From the NCBI GenBank assembly GCA_025353965.1, contig JANXNS010000146.1, positions 1 through 37,786 on the forward strand: a stretch of 37,786 nt of DNA, in the 5' to 3' direction. Within the stretch, counting starts at the first letter, position 1. Each line of letters opens with the position of its first letter. The position numbers and the translations under genes are program-made. This stretch comes from Aquihabitans sp. (GTDB lineage Bacteria; Actinomycetota; Acidimicrobiia; Acidimicrobiales; Iamiaceae). Below the pieces are notes generated by a model. That model was not told the origin of the DNA. It saw only the letters and a program-made list of their open reading frames with translations, and ran no database searches. Of the stretch, positions 2,088 to 35,716 are shown piece by piece.

Positions 2088-2780
2088 GTGCTGCTGGCCG
2101 AGTTGGAGGTGTTCCAGTCCCGGCCGATCGCTCCCACTCGGCGGGTGGCCATCGGGCTCACGGTGCTTCCCACCTCGCCTGCTCCTGGCTTCGGCGGGCT
2201 GCTCCTGGGGGGCATCGTTGCCGGGTTTGTCCCGGACATCGACCCGGACCTGCTCGATGACCTGACCGCGCTGACTCGTCAGCTCGAAGCGGGCCAGCGC
2301 ATCCCGCAACCGCGGCTTCGTCACCGCCTCCAGGACGACCGGATCGGGCTGACCTCGCACCGCCATCGGCTCATCGGCACGGGTGAGGAACTGGTGTTTG
2401 AGCTGGGCCAGGGAGCACCAGAGCCCAACGTGCTTGGTGCGGTCTACGCAGCGGCGCGAATCGACATCGAACATCGCTCTGCCATGTTCACGGCCATCCG
2501 TCGCGGCCTTCGGTGGCGGGGTGAAATTGGGCCGCGGCTGGTCGAACATCTCAGCGATTCGCGGCCCACCGCGGCGTGGGCCACCCATGGTTACGATCCC
2601 GTCATCTGGGCGCTTGGTATCTTGGGCTTGGGGTCGGAGGGCTCCGAGCGAGATCAGGTGCAGTACCGGTTCCGGGAGTTGTTGCGGGCCGCGCACCCGG
2701 ACCACGGTGGGGCTATCGATGCTGCTGCCCAGCGCATCACGGACCTCACCGAGGCCCGCCGGATCCTCCTGCATGGCTGA
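2088..2780 (+). CDS. Protein with C-terminal J-domain
   Basis: About 230 residues. The last 60 resemble a DnaJ J-domain: DPVIWALGILGLG, then a helix with FRELLRAAHPDHGG (HPD near residues 203-205), then a helix ending ITDLTEARRILL. The HPD loop is what J-proteins use to stimulate Hsp70 ATPase. The 165 residues before it match no family I recognise and include one glycine-rich hydrophobic stretch (GFGGLLLGGIVAGF). The domain order is reversed relative to classical DnaJ. GTG 2088 is preferred over GTG 2085 because TACCGT lies 6 nt before it, as at other leaderless starts here. The stop overlaps the start of the next gene by 8 bp, so the two are probably co-transcribed. It is a likely DnaK co-chaperone for a specific client. 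Confidence 0.78.
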   Translation: MLLAELEVFQSRPIAPTRRVAIGLTVLPTSPAPGFGGLLLGGIVAGFVPDIDPDLLDDLTALTRQLEAGQRIPQPRLRHRLQDDRIGLTSHRHRLIGTGEELVFELGQGAPEPNVLGAVYAAARIDIEHRSAMFTAIRRGLRWRGEIGPRLVEHLSDSRPTAAWATHGYDPVIWALGILGLGSEGSERDQVQYRFRELLRAAHPDHGGAIDAAAQRITDLTEARRILLHG

Positions 2781-3426
2781 TCGCTTGCCCGGTAGCGTAC
2801 GGCTCTTGCGCCCACGGACCGGTCGACCTGGCGGCTTGCTTTTGACCCCCGGAGCGGGGAGCGGGAAGGACCACCACACCTTGGTGGCGATCGACGACGC
2901 GGTGCGTCCGCTGCCGGTCTGGCGGGTGGATTTCCCCTACCGCAAGGAGGGTAGAAAGCCGCCGGATCGGGCACCCAAGCTGATCGCATCGGTGCTGGCC
3001 GACGCGGCGGCGTTCGTGGCGCAGGTGCCGTGCTCGGCGGACCGCCTTCTGCTCGGTGGGCGTTCGATGGGCGGTCGGATGTGCTCGATGGCGGTGGCAG
3101 AAGGGCTGCCCGCGGCCGGTTTGATCTTGCTGAGTTATCCGCTTCATCCGCCGGGCCAGCCCGAGCGCCTCCGCGTGGAGCATTTTCCCCATCTCACGGT
3201 TCCTTGCCTGTTCATCTCTGGCACGCGTGATCCGTTTGGTACCCCGGAAGAACTTCAGGCGGCCACCGCCACCATCCCAGGAGTGGTGACCCACCATTGG
3301 CTCCAGGACGGTCGCCACGAGGTAAAGGATGCGGACGACGAGATCTGCTCGGTTGTGCTGGCATGGATCGATGCATTGCCGCCAGTCAGCCCGATGATGG
3401 GGGCGCGGCAGCATCCTCCGGGTTGA
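2773..3426 (+). CDS. Alpha/beta hydrolase, KANL3/Tex30-like family
   Basis: 217 residues. Features of a small alpha/beta hydrolase are visible: LLLTPGAGSGKDHHT near the N-terminus (oxyanion region), GGRSMGGRM as the nucleophile elbow (Ser of GxSxG), SGTRDPFGTPEEL (acid) and QDGRHEVKD (histidine). This set matches the KANL3/Tex30 family of predicted dienelactone-hydrolase-like proteins. ATG 2773 overlaps the stop of the J-domain gene, indicating translational coupling. The 3' end overlaps the convergent MFS gene by 41 bp. The substrate cannot be told from sequence. Confidence 0.85.
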   Translation: MADRLPGSVRLLRPRTGRPGGLLLTPGAGSGKDHHTLVAIDDAVRPLPVWRVDFPYRKEGRKPPDRAPKLIASVLADAAAFVAQVPCSADRLLLGGRSMGGRMCSMAVAEGLPAAGLILLSYPLHPPGQPERLRVEHFPHLTVPCLFISGTRDPFGTPEELQAATATIPGVVTHHWLQDGRHEVKDADDEICSVVLAWIDALPPVSPMMGARQHPPG

Positions 3427-29764: not shown

Positions 29765-29795
29765 CGTGACCGATTCCCGGAGAACGACCCTGGGT

Positions 29796-29813
29796 CTTGA
29801 CCCGCGGGTCAAG
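29796..29813. promoter_or_regulatory. Palindromic operator before the MFS exporter gene
   Basis: CTTGACCCGCGGGTCAAG is a perfect 18-bp inverted repeat directly abutting the -10 box TAACCT (29814-29819). Ten bases further left is another GACCC-T-GGGTC arm pair (29786-29796), so four alternating GACCC/GGGTC half-sites lie in a row. Position and symmetry suit a TetR-family repressor. The same arms occur before tetR. Confidence 0.85.
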
Positions 29814-29819
29814 TAACCT
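29814..29819 (+). promoter_or_regulatory. -10 box, leaderless start of the MFS exporter gene
   Basis: TAACCT with 7 nt to GTG 29827, directly abutting the palindromic operator. A bound repressor would block RNA polymerase here. Confidence 0.65.
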
Positions 29820-29826
29820 CCTCGCC

Positions 29827-31305
29827 GTGTCGGAGCGCAGACAGGTCGTCATTGCCGACGGGGTCGTTCCCCATAACCGCTGGCCAATTCTGGCCACGGT
29901 CCTTTTTGGACTCTTCTCGGTCAACGTAACCGTGACCATCCTGGCGATCTCGATCCACCGGATAGCCCGCGAACTCGGCACCAGCGAGCCCACCATGACC
30001 TGGGTGGTCCTCGGGCCCATGCTGGCCTTCGGCGTGATTGGTCCCTTGGTAGGCAAGCTTGGCGACCGGCTGGGGCATCGCCGCCTCTTCCTGGGGGGCC
30101 TGCTGGGGGCCGCCGTTATGGCGGCGGCTTCGGCGCTGGCTTGGAATGCGGGCTCGCTCATTGCCTTCCGGACCCTCGGTGCGATCGAGGGGGCAGCAAC
30201 AGGGCCTGCGTCCTTCGCCATCATCTCCCGGATTTTCCCGCGGACGGAACGGGTTCGGGCCCTGGGCTACTGGACCATGGTCGCGGCGGGCGCCCCGGTG
30301 ATTGGTGTGGTGGCGGGTGGCCCGTTGGTGGAGGCCTTCGGGTGGCGGATGATTTTCGTTGCCCAGGTCCCGATCGCCCTGATCGCCCTGTCGTTTGCGT
30401 GGCGGCTCCTGCCGGAGACGCCCAAGAACCGTCAGGGAAGTTTCGATCTGGCTGGCGCGGCGCTGGTTGCGCTGTCGGTTACCCCGCTGTTGTTGGCACT
30501 GACGGAAGGTCCCCGTATTGGTTGGGGTAGCCCGCTGGTGGTGGGCTGTGTGCTGGTCACCCCCGTGGCGGTGGCTGCCTTTGTCCGAGTCGAGCGTCGG
30601 GCGGCGGACCCGCTGCTCCCGCTCCGTTACCTGAGCCGACCGGGCTTCACCTTTGCCATCGTGACTCAGGCGTTTCTGAATGCGGCCTACATGGGGTCCT
30701 TCATCCTCACGCCGTTGCTCCTTCAAAACGTGTTGGGCTTTTCGGAGACTCGCACCGGTTTGGTGAGCATCTCCCGGCCCCTCGCTTTTTCATTGGCTGG
30801 CACCATGGCCGGAATGGTGGCGCTACGGCTGGGCGCCCGGCGGGCGGCAACGGGCGGGGCCATCGCGGTGGTGTGCGCCATGGCGTGGATGTCCACGTTG
30901 GGTGCGGGGTCGACGATCCCCATGATCATGGGTGCCCTGGCGTTGGCCGGGGTCGGCATGGGGATTGCCATGCCGCCGCTGGCGGCATCGGTCACGGTGT
31001 CGGTCGAGGACCACGATTTGGGTATTGCCGGGGCGGCCCAGCAAATGATGAGCCAGGTAGGCGTTGTCTTCGGCATCCAGATCATGCAGGCGGTTCAACA
31101 AGCGCGGGTTGGCGCAGTGGGCCAGGCTGCGAGCTACCACTGGGGCTATTCGGCCGGAATGATTCTGGCCTCGGTCGGCGTGGTCACCGCCACGCGGATT
31201 GTGGCGGCCAACCGCACGGCCAACGAGACGGTGGAAGACTGGAACCTGGAGGAGGACGGGGACCTGCCCGGTCCTGATCAACTGGAGCCGGTGAACCTGC
31301 TGTAG
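29827..31305 (+). CDS. MFS efflux transporter, DHA2 (EmrB/QacA) type
   Basis: 492 residues with about 14 hydrophobic segments. Motif A is in GPLVGKLGDRLGHRRLF, motif C-like AGAPVIGVVAGGPLVEAFGWRMIF follows, and the second half carries another transporter repeat. This is the drug:H+ antiporter family 2 pattern, so export of a toxic or hydrophobic compound is the expected role. The start GTG 29827 follows TAACCT by 7 nt, and a perfect 18-bp palindrome sits directly upstream of that box. The same palindrome core precedes the tetR gene at 32510, so TetR repression with ligand-induced release is the likely control. Confidence 0.92.
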   Translation: MSERRQVVIADGVVPHNRWPILATVLFGLFSVNVTVTILAISIHRIARELGTSEPTMTWVVLGPMLAFGVIGPLVGKLGDRLGHRRLFLGGLLGAAVMAAASALAWNAGSLIAFRTLGAIEGAATGPASFAIISRIFPRTERVRALGYWTMVAAGAPVIGVVAGGPLVEAFGWRMIFVAQVPIALIALSFAWRLLPETPKNRQGSFDLAGAALVALSVTPLLLALTEGPRIGWGSPLVVGCVLVTPVAVAAFVRVERRAADPLLPLRYLSRPGFTFAIVTQAFLNAAYMGSFILTPLLLQNVLGFSETRTGLVSISRPLAFSLAGTMAGMVALRLGARRAATGGAIAVVCAMAWMSTLGAGSTIPMIMGALALAGVGMGIAMPPLAASVTVSVEDHDLGIAGAAQQMMSQVGVVFGIQIMQAVQQARVGAVGQAASYHWGYSAGMILASVGVVTATRIVAANRTANETVEDWNLEEDGDLPGPDQLEPVNLL

Positions 31306-31329
31306 GTCCGCCGCCCCATGAGCAGTTGC

Positions 31330-31737
31330 TCAGTCCGTGATGCCCTGGATTTTGGCGGCGATTTCTGCGGCGATGGGGTCCGGCGATCCGGCCTGCATGG
31401 CCATGAGCTTGGTCATGTCGCCCTGGACCTTGATCTTGCCGGCCATGAAGGCCTGCATCCCGGCTTGCGGGTTGCCTTCGACGAGGATCGCCTTGGCCGT
31501 TTCGTACTCAAGGGTCACGGTGAGATCTGCGGTCTCGAGGTGGCCGAGTTCCATCTCGATGTCTCCGCTTGAGGTGTCGAGGTGGGCATCGATGTTGGCG
31601 TCGGAGACGTCCGCGGGCACATCGCTGATCACCAGGTTCATGCGCATCTGGTGAGGAGGCACGCCAGCCTTGCCCTCGTACTCAGCCCGGATGGCCTTGG
31701 CCTGGTCCAGCCACTCGCTGCTCAAGAACTTCGACAC
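31330..31737 (-). CDS. SCP2 sterol-transfer-domain protein
   Basis: 135 residues. The protein is essentially one SCP2 domain: ADLTVTLEYETAKAILVEGNPQAGMQAFMAGKIKVQGDMTKLMAMQ is the conserved lipid-binding core, and the N-terminus has FLSSEWLDQAKAIRAEY. SCP2 domains bind fatty acyl-CoAs or sterol-like lipids. GTG 31737 has a strong Shine-Dalgarno (GAGGAGG) 5 nt upstream, and a possible -10 TAGTGT lies at 31790-31795, giving a leadered transcript, unlike many neighbours. It lies between the MFS exporter and the TetR gene. Whether it belongs to that unit is not clear. Confidence 0.88.
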   Translation of the reverse strand: MSKFLSSEWLDQAKAIRAEYEGKAGVPPHQMRMNLVISDVPADVSDANIDAHLDTSSGDIEMELGHLETADLTVTLEYETAKAILVEGNPQAGMQAFMAGKIKVQGDMTKLMAMQAGSPDPIAAEIAAKIQGITD

Positions 31738-31789
31738 GGGTTCCTCCTCGGAACGAATCGGTCCACTGACCCTTTGCGGAGCCGGCCGG

Positions 31790-31795
31790 ACACTA
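31790..31795 (-). promoter_or_regulatory. Possible -10 box of the SCP2 gene
   Basis: TAGTGT on the minus strand about 52 nt before GTG 31737. The strong GAGGAGG ribosome binding site fits a leadered mRNA. Confidence 0.4.
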
Positions 31796-31856
31796 GTGGT
31801 TGGGTTAGAACGATGAGCCCAAGGTGACGAGGTTCACGCGTCAGGCCGCGGGGGTT

Positions 31857-32510
31857 TCAGGCCGGGATGGGAGCGGGTGCGACGTGGACGGCCAGGACCC
31901 TGCGGACGATCGATTCATCGGACGCAAGCGAGCACACCACCCATCGCCCAACGAAGGCGGCGAGTTCGTCGACCGGCATGGGCATGCGGCCAGTCCGGTG
32001 GAAGTGGCCGTAGTAGCCAACCGTGCCGACAACGCCGTAGGCCAATAGTTCGAGTGGCTCGTCGCGGACGGTGCCGTCGGCGATGCCCTCGCGGATGATG
32101 GTGCTCACGTCGTCGGTGTGAACCTCGGTGCCCTTGGTCCGTTCGTCGGCAAAGGCCTTCTCCATGTTCTCCACCTCGAGCAGGGCAAAGAAGTTGGCGT
32201 AGCTGGCCATGTAGCGAACGGATGCTTCTGCCCCTTGGCGGAGCCGAAGGAGCGGTTCAGCGGCCGGGTCAATGGCGTGGGCTTGTGCCCGGCGCAAACG
32301 GAGGCGATTCTGCTCAACGAGTTCGCGAAACAGCCCTTCCTTGTTTTCGAAATACCAGTAGAAGAGGCCCTTGGCCACCCCGGCGGCTTTCACGATGTCG
32401 AGAATGCGGGTCTCGGCGTACCCTCGCTCGGCGAAGAGCGTGGCCGCATGGTCGAGAAGCTGCTCCTTGCGCTCTTGGCCCTGGGCGGTGAGATGACGGT
32501 CCTCGCTCAT
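31857..32510 (-). CDS. TetR/AcrR-family transcriptional regulator
   Basis: 217 residues. The N-terminal helix-turn-helix is classic TetR: RKEQLLDHAATLFAERGYAETRILDIVKAAGVAKGLFYWYFENKEGLFRELV. The C-terminal helical domain would bind a ligand. A perfect 24-bp palindrome (32529-32552) lies 18 bp upstream of its start, and its core recurs before the MFS exporter gene, so autorepression plus exporter repression is likely. ATG 32510 is taken as the start. Further in-frame starts at 32528 and 32564 would run through the palindrome. A candidate promoter reads TTGACC (inside the palindrome), 18-bp spacer, TCCACT, then 8 nt to the ATG. Confidence 0.92.
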   Translation of the reverse strand: MSEDRHLTAQGQERKEQLLDHAATLFAERGYAETRILDIVKAAGVAKGLFYWYFENKEGLFRELVEQNRLRLRRAQAHAIDPAAEPLLRLRQGAEASVRYMASYANFFALLEVENMEKAFADERTKGTEVHTDDVSTIIREGIADGTVRDEPLELLAYGVVGTVGYYGHFHRTGRMPMPVDELAAFVGRWVVCSLASDESIVRRVLAVHVAPAPIPA

Positions 32511-32528
32511 GATCGGCCAGTGGATCAT

Positions 32529-32552
32529 CTCCTTGACCCATGGGTCAAGGAG
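32529..32552. promoter_or_regulatory. Palindromic operator before tetR
   Basis: A perfect 24-bp inverted repeat with core CTTGACCC-AT-GGGTCAAG extended by CTC and GAG on either side. It lies 18 bp upstream of the TetR start codon, and its TTGACC arm could be the -35 element. The core arms are identical to those at 29796-29813, differing only in the two central bases. Confidence 0.85.
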
Positions 32553-32646: not shown

Positions 32647-33417
32647 ATGACCGAATCACCACTTCCTGATGACCTCATTGCGGGTGCCGAGCCCGCGTTC
32701 TTTGACGGTGGTCCCGCCGGGGCGTTGGTGTTGCACGGTTTCACTGGCAATCCCGCCTCCATGCGCGGTGTGGCTGAGGCGTTGGCTGCGGCCGGGTTCA
32801 CCGTTGACCTCCCGCTCCTCCCAGGGCATGGGACCAAGGTCGAAGACATGATCCCCACGGGCTTCGCTGACTGGTTGGGTCATGCTGAGCAGCGTTATCA
32901 GGCCTTGGCCGAGCGGTGCGACCACGTTGTGGTGGTAGGCCTCTCCATGGGTGGAGCGCTCACGGCGTGGCTCGGGTCCGAGCACCGAGAAATTGCTGGC
33001 CTGGTGTGTATCAACGCGGTGGTGTCCGTGCCCGACGGGATGCGTGAGGCCGTCACGGAGGTGCTGGCCTCGGGGGCGGATCGGTTCGCCGGCATCGGTT
33101 CAGACATCGCCGATCCGGACACGGTAGAGAGCGCCTACGCCGAGACGCCGCTGGCCCCGCTGCTCACCATGTTCGATGCGGCCGACAAGTTGGGTGGCCG
33201 CCTCGGCCAGATCACCTCACCGATGCTCATCGTGACCAGCACCCAAGATCACGTGGTCGCGCCCGAGAACTCGGATCTCCTGGCCGCTTCGGTGTCGGGG
33301 CCGGTGGAGCGCCTTCGCTGCGAGCGTAGCTATCACGTCGTCACCATGGATTACGACAAGGACATGGTGATGGCGGCCACGGTGGACTTTGCCGAGAAGG
33401 TCACAGCTGGCGCTTGA
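32647..33417 (+). CDS. Carboxylesterase/monoacylglycerol-lipase-like alpha/beta hydrolase (Est30 type)
   Basis: 256 residues. LVLHGFTGNPASMRGVAEAL (oxyanion turn) and LPLLPGHGTKVEDM are followed by VVVGLSMGGALTAWLG with nucleophile Ser100. TSTQDHVVAPENS supplies the Asp, and RSYHVVTMDYD the His. This set is that of Bacillus Est30 carboxylesterase and related lipases. ATG 32647 has CGGAG about 6 nt upstream. GTG 32617, in frame, is preceded by CAAGTT at 6 nt and is an alternative leaderless start. It is divergent from tetR with the operator palindrome in the shared 136-bp region, so it may respond to the same regulator. Confidence 0.85.
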   Translation: MTESPLPDDLIAGAEPAFFDGGPAGALVLHGFTGNPASMRGVAEALAAAGFTVDLPLLPGHGTKVEDMIPTGFADWLGHAEQRYQALAERCDHVVVVGLSMGGALTAWLGSEHREIAGLVCINAVVSVPDGMREAVTEVLASGADRFAGIGSDIADPDTVESAYAETPLAPLLTMFDAADKLGGRLGQITSPMLIVTSTQDHVVAPENSDLLAASVSGPVERLRCERSYHVVTMDYDKDMVMAATVDFAEKVTAGA

Positions 33418-33418
33418 G

Positions 33419-35674
33419 CTACCGGGTCACCCGGAGCACGAAGGTCGCGTCGTCCCCGCCGGATGAGAACCACGGTTGCCCGGCTTGCGAAATGCCGAGC
33501 CGTACTCGGTAGATCCCTGGGGGTAACGGCTGGAGCCCCGGATCGACCGCATACACGGTTACTTCCGCTCGAAACCGTTGGCCTGGCTCGACCCATCGGT
33601 CGATTTCGCCCGATGAGCGGGCACCGCCGGGGGCGTCGGTGGTGATAGGGGTGATGTCGGCCACCACCTGTACGCGGCCGTTCAGCCCGAAGCTGGCGGC
33701 ATCGGGCCAGGGCGCCACCCCACCCCGGTGGCGGCCGCGCATGGTGACGGTCACGGAACCGCCAGAGGTCACGGAAATCGTCTGTCTTGCTCGCTCATCG
33801 AGGTCAAGGTCCACTCGCCGGGCCGCTCGAGGCAGAGGCGCAGGAAAGTTCGCAGGGAGCAGGCGGCCCTGCTTGGCCAGCCGGTCTTGTTCGCCTCCGG
33901 GAGTTACCCATACGGCCAGGCCGACAGGCACCTTCCAAAAGTCCGCAAGGCCGCCTTGGTCGAGGAGGAGGACCCGATCCCCGTGCTTGATTCGGGCCGG
34001 GTCGTCGAGGCGGGCCACCACGTAGGGCGCCTCGGGCCGTTCGCCTCGGGACTGCTGGTACACGGAGACGTCGACTCCGGGCAGGTGGAATGGGTAGAGG
34101 AGCGTGGGGATCGCGTGGGCAGTTTGTCCCTCGATGGCAAGCTCCGACACCCCCAGCCGTCGGAGGTCATCGGGTGTGTTCCACCTCTCGGTGAGGAGGC
34201 TTTCAAAGGCTTGTGTGCCGGAAACGGTCCCGTATCGGGCGTAACCAAACCATCCGACCAGACCGACCACGAGGGCCAGGGCAACGCCGCGGTGCGCCGC
34301 CGGCTGGCGGCGGGCCCATGCGTGCTCCCTGAGGGCGATGAGCGCAGCGATGGCGCCGGCGCCGATCAAGCCGCCGACCGTGGCGCGCCAGAACGTTTGG
34401 CTGGGGTGGTCTCCGACGTAGCGAATGACGGCTGGAACCGCGAAGGGAGAGAACCGGCCGTCCAAGGTCATCGGGTCGCGGGCCGTTATCACGATGGCGC
34501 CGAGCACGCCGATGGCCATGGCCGCCGTGAGCATGTCGCGTAGCCGGGCCTGAATTGGCCGAGTGGCCAGCAGCGAGGCCAAGCCGAGGCTTACCCAGAG
34601 CGGGGTGAAGGAGTCGTTGTGGCGCCCGTAGATCCAGTGGTCGGCACGGAACTGGTTCTGGGCGAAGAAGACCACCGATGTTGCGAACACGACCGTCGCC
34701 GTGGCCAACAGAACACCTAAGGCGAATCGGCCTTCGACGGCCAAGTTTTTGACCCCCGCAAGAGCGCGGACTCGCACGGCTCGAAGCACCCACATCAACC
34801 CGATCACCGAGAGTCCTAGCGACCCGACAGCGAGATACCAGGCCTGCCCGAGGGCGGTGAGGATCAGTTCCCACAGGGCACTCCAGGAACTGATGAGGCC
34901 GAGCCAGTCACTCGTCCCACCCTCAAGCTGCTCGCTCGCCGCCCATCGCGATCCGATCACGACCCGGAACAACACATACCCCGCAGTGGTGAGGATCACG
35001 AGCAGAGCGGCGTTGATCCCGGCCACCCGGCGCGAGATCAATCTCGAGCGCGCCGCCACCACGAGAGCCGCTGCCGCGATCGGGAGGGTCAAGGTGAATC
35101 GCGGGTGCGTCGTCACCAGCGCGGCCACCATCGGTCCATAGGCGTACGGCCAATGCCGGCGCTCGCCCCGCTCGGTCTCGGTCATGGCCCAGGCCGCCAG
35201 TACCGAAGCAATCACCAACGGAAGGACCAGGTTTTCGGCAATGGCCGAGACGCCAGCGGCGATCACCGCGGGCACAACGGCCCCCACCCCGGCGGCGGCC
35301 AGCGCCACCCGCCGCGGCACGTTGGCCGTCTTGGTGAGCAGGGCAAACAAGAGGGGGAAAATCGACGCAAGCAGGATGGCATTGACCGCTAGCACGGCGC
35401 GCCATTGGGCTTCGGCCGTGTGGAAGACCGCCATGACCGGTGCCAGCACCACCGGATAGCCGATCGCATAGGAGGGCGATCGGGGCATCTGCCATTGGGC
35501 GCCGCCGGCCAGCCAACGGGCGTTTCCTACATAACCAGACTCGTCGAAGACAACGGATGGTCCACCGATTCGATGGGAGGACCACAGGTGGAAGGCCGCC
35601 AAGGTCAGGGTGATGACGATGAGCACGAGGTGCTGTTCAATCCCAGGCCGCCGGCCGGTGGTTGCTTTGCCCAT
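33419..35674 (-). CDS. GT-C-like multi-pass membrane glycosyltransferase (putative)
   Basis: 751 residues. After a first membrane helix, the loop PSVVFDESGYVGNARWLAGG holds Asp44-Glu45, as in the first external loop of GT-C (GT39/ArnT/PMT-like) enzymes. About 12 more hydrophobic segments follow. The last ~250 residues form an extracytoplasmic part that ends in a beta-rich region (VTVTMRGRHRGG to VRLGISQAGQPWF). It would use a polyprenyl-phosphate sugar, but donor and acceptor are unknown. ATG 35674 has an ideal GGAGGT 7 nt upstream and a TAGTGT box before it. The stop is 1 nt from the stop of the convergent esterase. Confidence 0.72.
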   Translation of the reverse strand: MGKATTGRRPGIEQHLVLIVITLTLAAFHLWSSHRIGGPSVVFDESGYVGNARWLAGGAQWQMPRSPSYAIGYPVVLAPVMAVFHTAEAQWRAVLAVNAILLASIFPLLFALLTKTANVPRRVALAAAGVGAVVPAVIAAGVSAIAENLVLPLVIASVLAAWAMTETERGERRHWPYAYGPMVAALVTTHPRFTLTLPIAAAALVVAARSRLISRRVAGINAALLVILTTAGYVLFRVVIGSRWAASEQLEGGTSDWLGLISSWSALWELILTALGQAWYLAVGSLGLSVIGLMWVLRAVRVRALAGVKNLAVEGRFALGVLLATATVVFATSVVFFAQNQFRADHWIYGRHNDSFTPLWVSLGLASLLATRPIQARLRDMLTAAMAIGVLGAIVITARDPMTLDGRFSPFAVPAVIRYVGDHPSQTFWRATVGGLIGAGAIAALIALREHAWARRQPAAHRGVALALVVGLVGWFGYARYGTVSGTQAFESLLTERWNTPDDLRRLGVSELAIEGQTAHAIPTLLYPFHLPGVDVSVYQQSRGERPEAPYVVARLDDPARIKHGDRVLLLDQGGLADFWKVPVGLAVWVTPGGEQDRLAKQGRLLPANFPAPLPRAARRVDLDLDERARQTISVTSGGSVTVTMRGRHRGGVAPWPDAASFGLNGRVQVVADITPITTDAPGGARSSGEIDRWVEPGQRFRAEVTVYAVDPGLQPLPPGIYRVRLGISQAGQPWFSSGGDDATFVLRVTR

Positions 35675-35716
35675 GCATGACACCTCCAGCCGACACTAAC
35701 GGGGTTCGGGAGGTCG

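Follow-up and report, generated by a model that had tools for sequence, protein, structure and literature searches.

The window analysed here, a stretch of 37,786 nucleotides from Aquihabitans sp. (contig JANXNS010000146.1), carries in this order the genes for a PknB-like kinase, an MFS transporter (plus strand), an SCP2-like protein (minus), a TetR-family regulator (minus) and a divergent alpha/beta hydrolase (plus); the relevant features are listed in Table 1. The two perfect palindromes, which an earlier sequence-only reading had described at this locus, are real and they have the 16-bp core TTGACCC-N2-GGGTCAA in common. The distance of 1.2 kb, by which that reading separated the regulator from the pump, is correct for the gap between the MFS stop and the tetR start, but the two sites themselves are 2.7 kb apart. 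Further, the SCP2-like gene, which had been placed on the strand opposite to tetR, is actually on the same strand, and as the order tetR-SCP2 is also conserved, the two genes are probably co-transcribed. The alpha/beta hydrolase gene across operator 2 was absent from that reading.

Table 1. Positions in the window of the operators and genes of the tetR-MFS locus.
Feature	Position	Strand or location	Remarks
Extra half-sites GACCCTGGGTC	29787..29797	beside operator 1	in the window's genome only
Operator 1 CTTGACCCGCGGGTCAAG	29796..29813	at MFS promoter	18-bp perfect inverted repeat
-10 box TAACCT	29814..29819	+	directly adjoins operator 1
DHA2-type MFS transporter	29827..31305	+	GTG start at 29827; Pfam MFS_1 E 3.9e-45
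SCP2-like sterol/lipid carrier	31330..31737	-	Pfam SCP2 E 3.3e-08; 3' of tetR
TetR-family regulator, 217 aa	31857..32510	-	ATG at 32510; Pfam TetR_N E 4.3e-18
Operator 2 CTCCTTGACCCATGGGTCAAGGAG	32529..32552	between tetR and the divergent hydrolase	24-bp perfect inverted repeat
Alpha/beta hydrolase	32647..33417	+	Pfam Hydrolase_4; divergent from tetR

The TetR protein scores 65.3 bits with the helix-turn-helix model TetR_N (PF00440), well over its cut-off of 24, and its structure model (pLDDT 89.7, ten helices) shows the all-helical TetR fold with its C-terminal domain for ligand and dimer contacts, with structural matches of up to Z 19.6. For the MFS protein, the best NCBIfam match is TIGR00711 (efflux_EmrB), with a score of 205.8 bits that lies under the curated cut-off of 230.2. 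Judging from the layout of operator 1, the -10 box and the start codon, the MFS transcript is probably leaderless. A consensus scan, which requires a -35 box, did not detect a promoter of sigma-70 type there; in leaderless actinobacterial promoters the -35 box is often absent. Downstream of the hydrolase gene, a 754-aa membrane-type protein is encoded on the minus strand (33419-35683), for which no Pfam match was found.

When the window is scanned for the core motif with up to 3 mismatches, only operators 1 and 2 are found (the mean for shuffled sequences is 0.26), and the 3.18-Mb genome to which the window belongs contains 5 exact copies against 0.018 expected from a second-order Markov model. 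The copies elsewhere in this genome are few and linked to promoters. In 61 related genomes, most of the genomes compared being incomplete MAGs, there are 59 exact sites and none of a control pattern in which the motif is read backwards. A chance palindrome of GC-rich DNA is ruled out by the absence of the control pattern and by the Markov expectation.

Orthologues of the TetR are present throughout the family to which the window belongs and in some neighbouring families of the same order, the nearest in the named collection being that of Aquihabitans sp. G128 (87%), followed by those of Acidimicrobiales MAGs. In all 22 of the orthologous loci that are at least 55% identical and have an upstream region, the palindrome is present upstream of tetR with at most 2 mismatches, usually 35-40 bp from the start; a palindrome at the regulator's own promoter is a frequent though not invariable trait of the TetR family. 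In the ten nearest relatives together with the window the arms of operator 2 are 96% conserved, whereas the two flanks reach 50% and 60%. Of 18 MFS loci, 12 have the operator with no more than one mismatch, and in these a TAnnnT box nearly always adjoins it and the start codon follows about 8 bp further; the MFS site was not found in two loci (L057 and L058) that have kept both genes. The gene order hydrolase - tetR - SCP2 - MFS recurs in many of the relatives. In the orthologous TetR locus (L059) of a Candidatus Microthrix parvicella MAG, operators occur at tetR (1 mismatch) and at the MFS gene (exact). Candidatus Microthrix parvicella is a sludge bacterium and a known lipid accumulator. Due to the conservation of the palindromes at both promoters, and as the motif also tracks the presence of the TetR, control by one TetR of both its own gene and the DHA2-type MFS gene, as the sequence-only reading had proposed, is well supported by inference, and both palindromes are retained in most relatives, including the close ones, which possess both genes. 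However, the extra half-sites beside operator 1, although present in the window as that reading had noted, are absent in the relatives at the MFS locus, and due to this the QacR-like binding of two dimers, which it had suggested for the exporter site, is without support. Co-regulation of the hydrolase is also uncertain, because in one relative (L046) the hydrolase gene has moved away from tetR and is without a site of its own.

Outside the tetR locus, 35 of the 39 target starts, as predicted by a codon-usage gene caller, lie within 100 bp of an exact site, in comparison to about 7% of random positions, and the distances from site to start codon range from 8 to 150 bp. One of these sites lies between an acyl-CoA dehydrogenase gene (ACAD1) and a divergent FrhB-like gene, which have it in common, and it is present with 0-1 mismatch in all 9 close orthologues of the genus and on contig C6 of the window's own genome; a 73% homologue of ACAD1 is without the site. 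The pairing of a steroid-type acyl-CoA dehydrogenase with a divergent iron-sulphur flavoprotein of FrhB/F420 type recurs across several genomes (e.g. L092, 1244-4103; L005, 2-1940), and the flavoprotein is possibly an unusual electron-transfer partner of the dehydrogenase. For a second dehydrogenase (ACAD2) a site with at most 2 mismatches is present in 4 of 7 cases. Exact sites precede FMO-like enzymes in three genomes of the genus and in three other genera, but this membership is patchy, with exact sites at 3 of 17 homologues, and sites before a serine hydrolase and before an SDR are each present in two genomes (one of the latter with a mismatch). The one-mismatch sites in the window's genome precede an SDR, an FMO, a thiolase-like gene and an acyl-CoA dehydrogenase that is similar to one of the targets in G001. 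For several further sites the gene that follows (an XRE regulator, a permease or a methyltransferase) is not clearly connected with lipids. One exact operator (L006 4018; G000:C7:16517), which overlaps the stop of one gene and lies 150 bp before genes for an XRE-type regulator and a glycosyltransferase, is common to no relative in the genomes compared. In some genomes exporters of other types (MFS_3, ABC) carry the site, the ABC exporter genes being those of L115, L106 and L123 (genomes G018, G017 and G060), and different exporter types may thus fill the role of the pump. Because the motif also precedes acyl-CoA dehydrogenases, Baeyer-Villiger-type enzymes, an SDR, esterase-like hydrolases and exporters, the TetR very probably heads a scattered regulon for the breakdown of fatty or ring-shaped molecules, in which the pump is included, rather than a mere pump switch. 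The pairing of repressor and exporter proposed earlier is thus supported in part: it holds as far as the pump is an output, but it is too narrow, as the same motif stands before ACADs, FMO, SDR and hydrolases. As the motif recurs before several of the same orthologous enzymes across genomes, the pump is most probably one output of a regulon of catabolic type, and the TetR is unlikely to be a repressor dedicated to drug efflux.

The nature of the substrates can be approached through these enzymes. The best PDB matches of ACAD1 (4x28, 6wy8 and 6wy9; E about 1e-63) are steroid side-chain dehydrogenases (ChsE4-ChsE5 and Tcur3481-Tcur3483), and the FMO is similar to the Baeyer-Villiger enzyme PtlE, with a score under the PtlE cut-off. 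Together with the SCP2-like protein and the hydrolases, ACAD1 and the FMO point to lipophilic or alicyclic substrates, a link to steroids being only a possibility. However, as Acidimicrobiia are rich in acyl-CoA dehydrogenases, membership in the ACAD class alone should be taken as weak proof of the function of the regulon. Since the distant sites precede genes of catabolic type, an acyl-CoA-like or lipophilic inducer appears likelier than an antibiotic, its precise chemistry being a guess. The fold of the TetR does not decide its ligand class, because the top matches in the VIA-align ranking are nearly tied (within 1-2 Z) with drug-linked repressors such as MtrR and EthR.

The closest relatives of the TetR by sequence and by fold include PfmR, FadR and other lipid-type regulators. 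The operator has the frame of those of PfmR and SbtR, changed at one symmetric position, and the system thus belongs with the TetR-type lipid regulators, a class already known. Among PDB sequences PfmR (TTHB023) of Thermus thermophilus matches the TetR best (3vpr, E 3.9e-13), and it is also the top Foldseek hit, but the identity is about 25%, the targets are different, and the central base pair is G/C there and C/G here. PfmR has fatty-acid-related targets. Its operator is 16 bp long, of the type CTGACCG-N2-CGGTCAG (PMC7022988), and the TGACCG-N2-CGGTCA form differs from the TGACCC-N2-GGGTCA of this TetR but is found at a paralogue (G000:C100) considered below. The operator of SbtR (TTHA0167) from the same species, quoted as TGACYrnnyRGTCA in the same source (PMC7022988), shares the TGACC...GGTCA frame with TTGACCC-N2-GGGTCAA, but position 6 is a purine there and C here, and SbtR also has other targets. 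The FadR regulators of T. thermophilus, Bacillus and Sulfolobus have the same TetR fold, with beta-oxidation genes as targets and acyl-CoA ligands, but are only about 20% identical to this TetR. SaFadR is the best VIA-align match of the TetR model (Z 19.6, rmsd 2.4, 190 aligned), with a Z tied with those of non-lipid TetRs; its motif is of the same length as here, 16 bp (PMC6449355), and that of T. thermophilus FadR is 15 bp, TTRNACYNRGTNYAA (PMC5597230). The TetR also resembles KstR and KstR2 of the mycobacterial cholesterol regulons, which likewise control scattered genes for ring and side-chain catabolism; KstR2 is among its sequence and fold hits, and ACAD1 resembles steroid ACADs. However, its score with the KstR model NF033703 is 19.3 bits, far under the cut-off of 280, which places it outside KstR. 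In LfrR-LfrA and QacR-QacA, too, a TetR regulator with a palindromic operator lies beside an exporter of DHA2 type, but the targets predicted here are many, the pump being one of them, and QacR-like paired half-sites are not conserved. No prior report of this regulon or operator variant was found in the open papers searched.

Based on the enrichment, conservation and promoter position of the motif, and on its co-occurrence with the TetR, we infer both binding and repression, and we put at roughly 80% the probability that this TetR represses tetR-SCP2, the MFS gene and the distant catabolic genes through TTGACCC-N2-GGGTCAA and is probably released by an acyl-CoA-like compound. A TetR dimer bound to this motif would repress its own tetR-SCP2 transcript, and also the DHA2-type MFS gene, where an operator placed against the -10 box would block RNA polymerase. 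Repression would likewise extend to the distant targets, viz. acyl-CoA dehydrogenases with the FrhB-like flavoprotein, monooxygenases of FMO/Baeyer-Villiger type, esterase-like hydrolases and an SDR, and an acyl-CoA thioester or a similar lipophilic or alicyclic intermediate would then release the TetR, by which the breakdown enzymes and the exporter would be turned on together.

If the operator were instead common to several TetR paralogues, the apparent regulon would be a composite of overlapping regulators. The paralogue most relevant in this regard (L126, G000:C100:15000-20000; 2310-2906, minus strand) has a PfmR-like operator, TTGACCGTTCGGTCAA, 30 bp upstream, and it is about 35% identical to the TetR overall, with a nearly identical recognition helix and a motif differing at one symmetric position. 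The window's genome contains six TTGACCG-N2-CGGTCAA sites, the others of which precede thiolases, an acyl-CoA synthetase, an acyl-CoA dehydrogenase and a hydrolase, and this paralogue is a probable head of a sister beta-oxidation regulon. A common operator is also favoured by some orthologues (L056) whose own promoter carries the TTGACCG form, and by the sites that PfmR and SbtR are reported to have in common (PMC7022988). However, exact TTGACCC sites number 56 in the 28 genomes with a TetR orthologue and 3 in the 33 genomes without it (Fisher p 2e-8, a value that overstates independence as the genomes are related). When the genomes are divided by the presence of the orthologue (O) and of the 35%-identical paralogue (P), the TTGACCC form occurs 44 times in 21 O+P+, 12 times in 7 O+P-, 3 times in 13 O-P+ and 0 times in 20 O-P- genomes, and the corresponding numbers for the TTGACCG form are 106, 14, 43 and 3. 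Two of the three exact sites of the O-P+ class come from G006, which belongs to the same genus and is incomplete. From these counts each form appears to go mostly with its own TetR, with some leakage as in L056, and the 3 against 43 sites of the paralogue-only genomes make a composite regulon unlikely. The same counts disfavour the paralogue as the true reader of the TTGACCC form.

Alternatively, the TetR could be a local switch of multidrug type, which controls only itself and the exporter in answer to a toxic compound, as in LfrR/LfrA or QacR/QacA, the distant sites being incidental. The DHA2-type pump, the presence of operators before both genes in the majority of relatives and the MFS_3 and ABC exporters with sites would agree with this. 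However, the excess of exact sites over expectation in the window's genome is difficult to reconcile with it, the ACAD1/FrhB site is as well conserved as the pump site, and in three loci (L053, L054 and L055) the TetR and its own site are kept without a neighbouring DHA2 gene, and we regard a purely local role as quite improbable. The wide range of site-to-start distances could also indicate that the TetR acts as an activator, not a repressor, at some targets, but the MFS site adjoins the -10 box, a position typical of repression, and activation appears very improbable. With repression of a scattered regulon as the preferred reading, it may further be proposed, tentatively and with the balance somewhat against it, that Acidimicrobiia possess a TetR regulon, not described before, which joins the breakdown of steroid-like or terpenoid-like compounds (by the steroid-type acyl-CoA dehydrogenase with its F420-type FrhB partner, Baeyer-Villiger enzymes and SCP2) with an exporter, and that its operator has diverged from that of the beta-oxidation paralogue by one symmetric base pair, which yields two largely insulated regulons.

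A pair of paralogues with operators one symmetric base pair apart provides a clean case for the insulation of duplicated repressors, and the locus also cautions against taking every pump encoded beside a TetR regulator for a drug pump. Acidimicrobiia are common and mostly uncultured bacteria, including the Candidatus Microthrix genome (L059) noted above, whose gene regulation is little studied, and a sharp operator with a conserved list of targets offers a testable route to the substrates that they break down.
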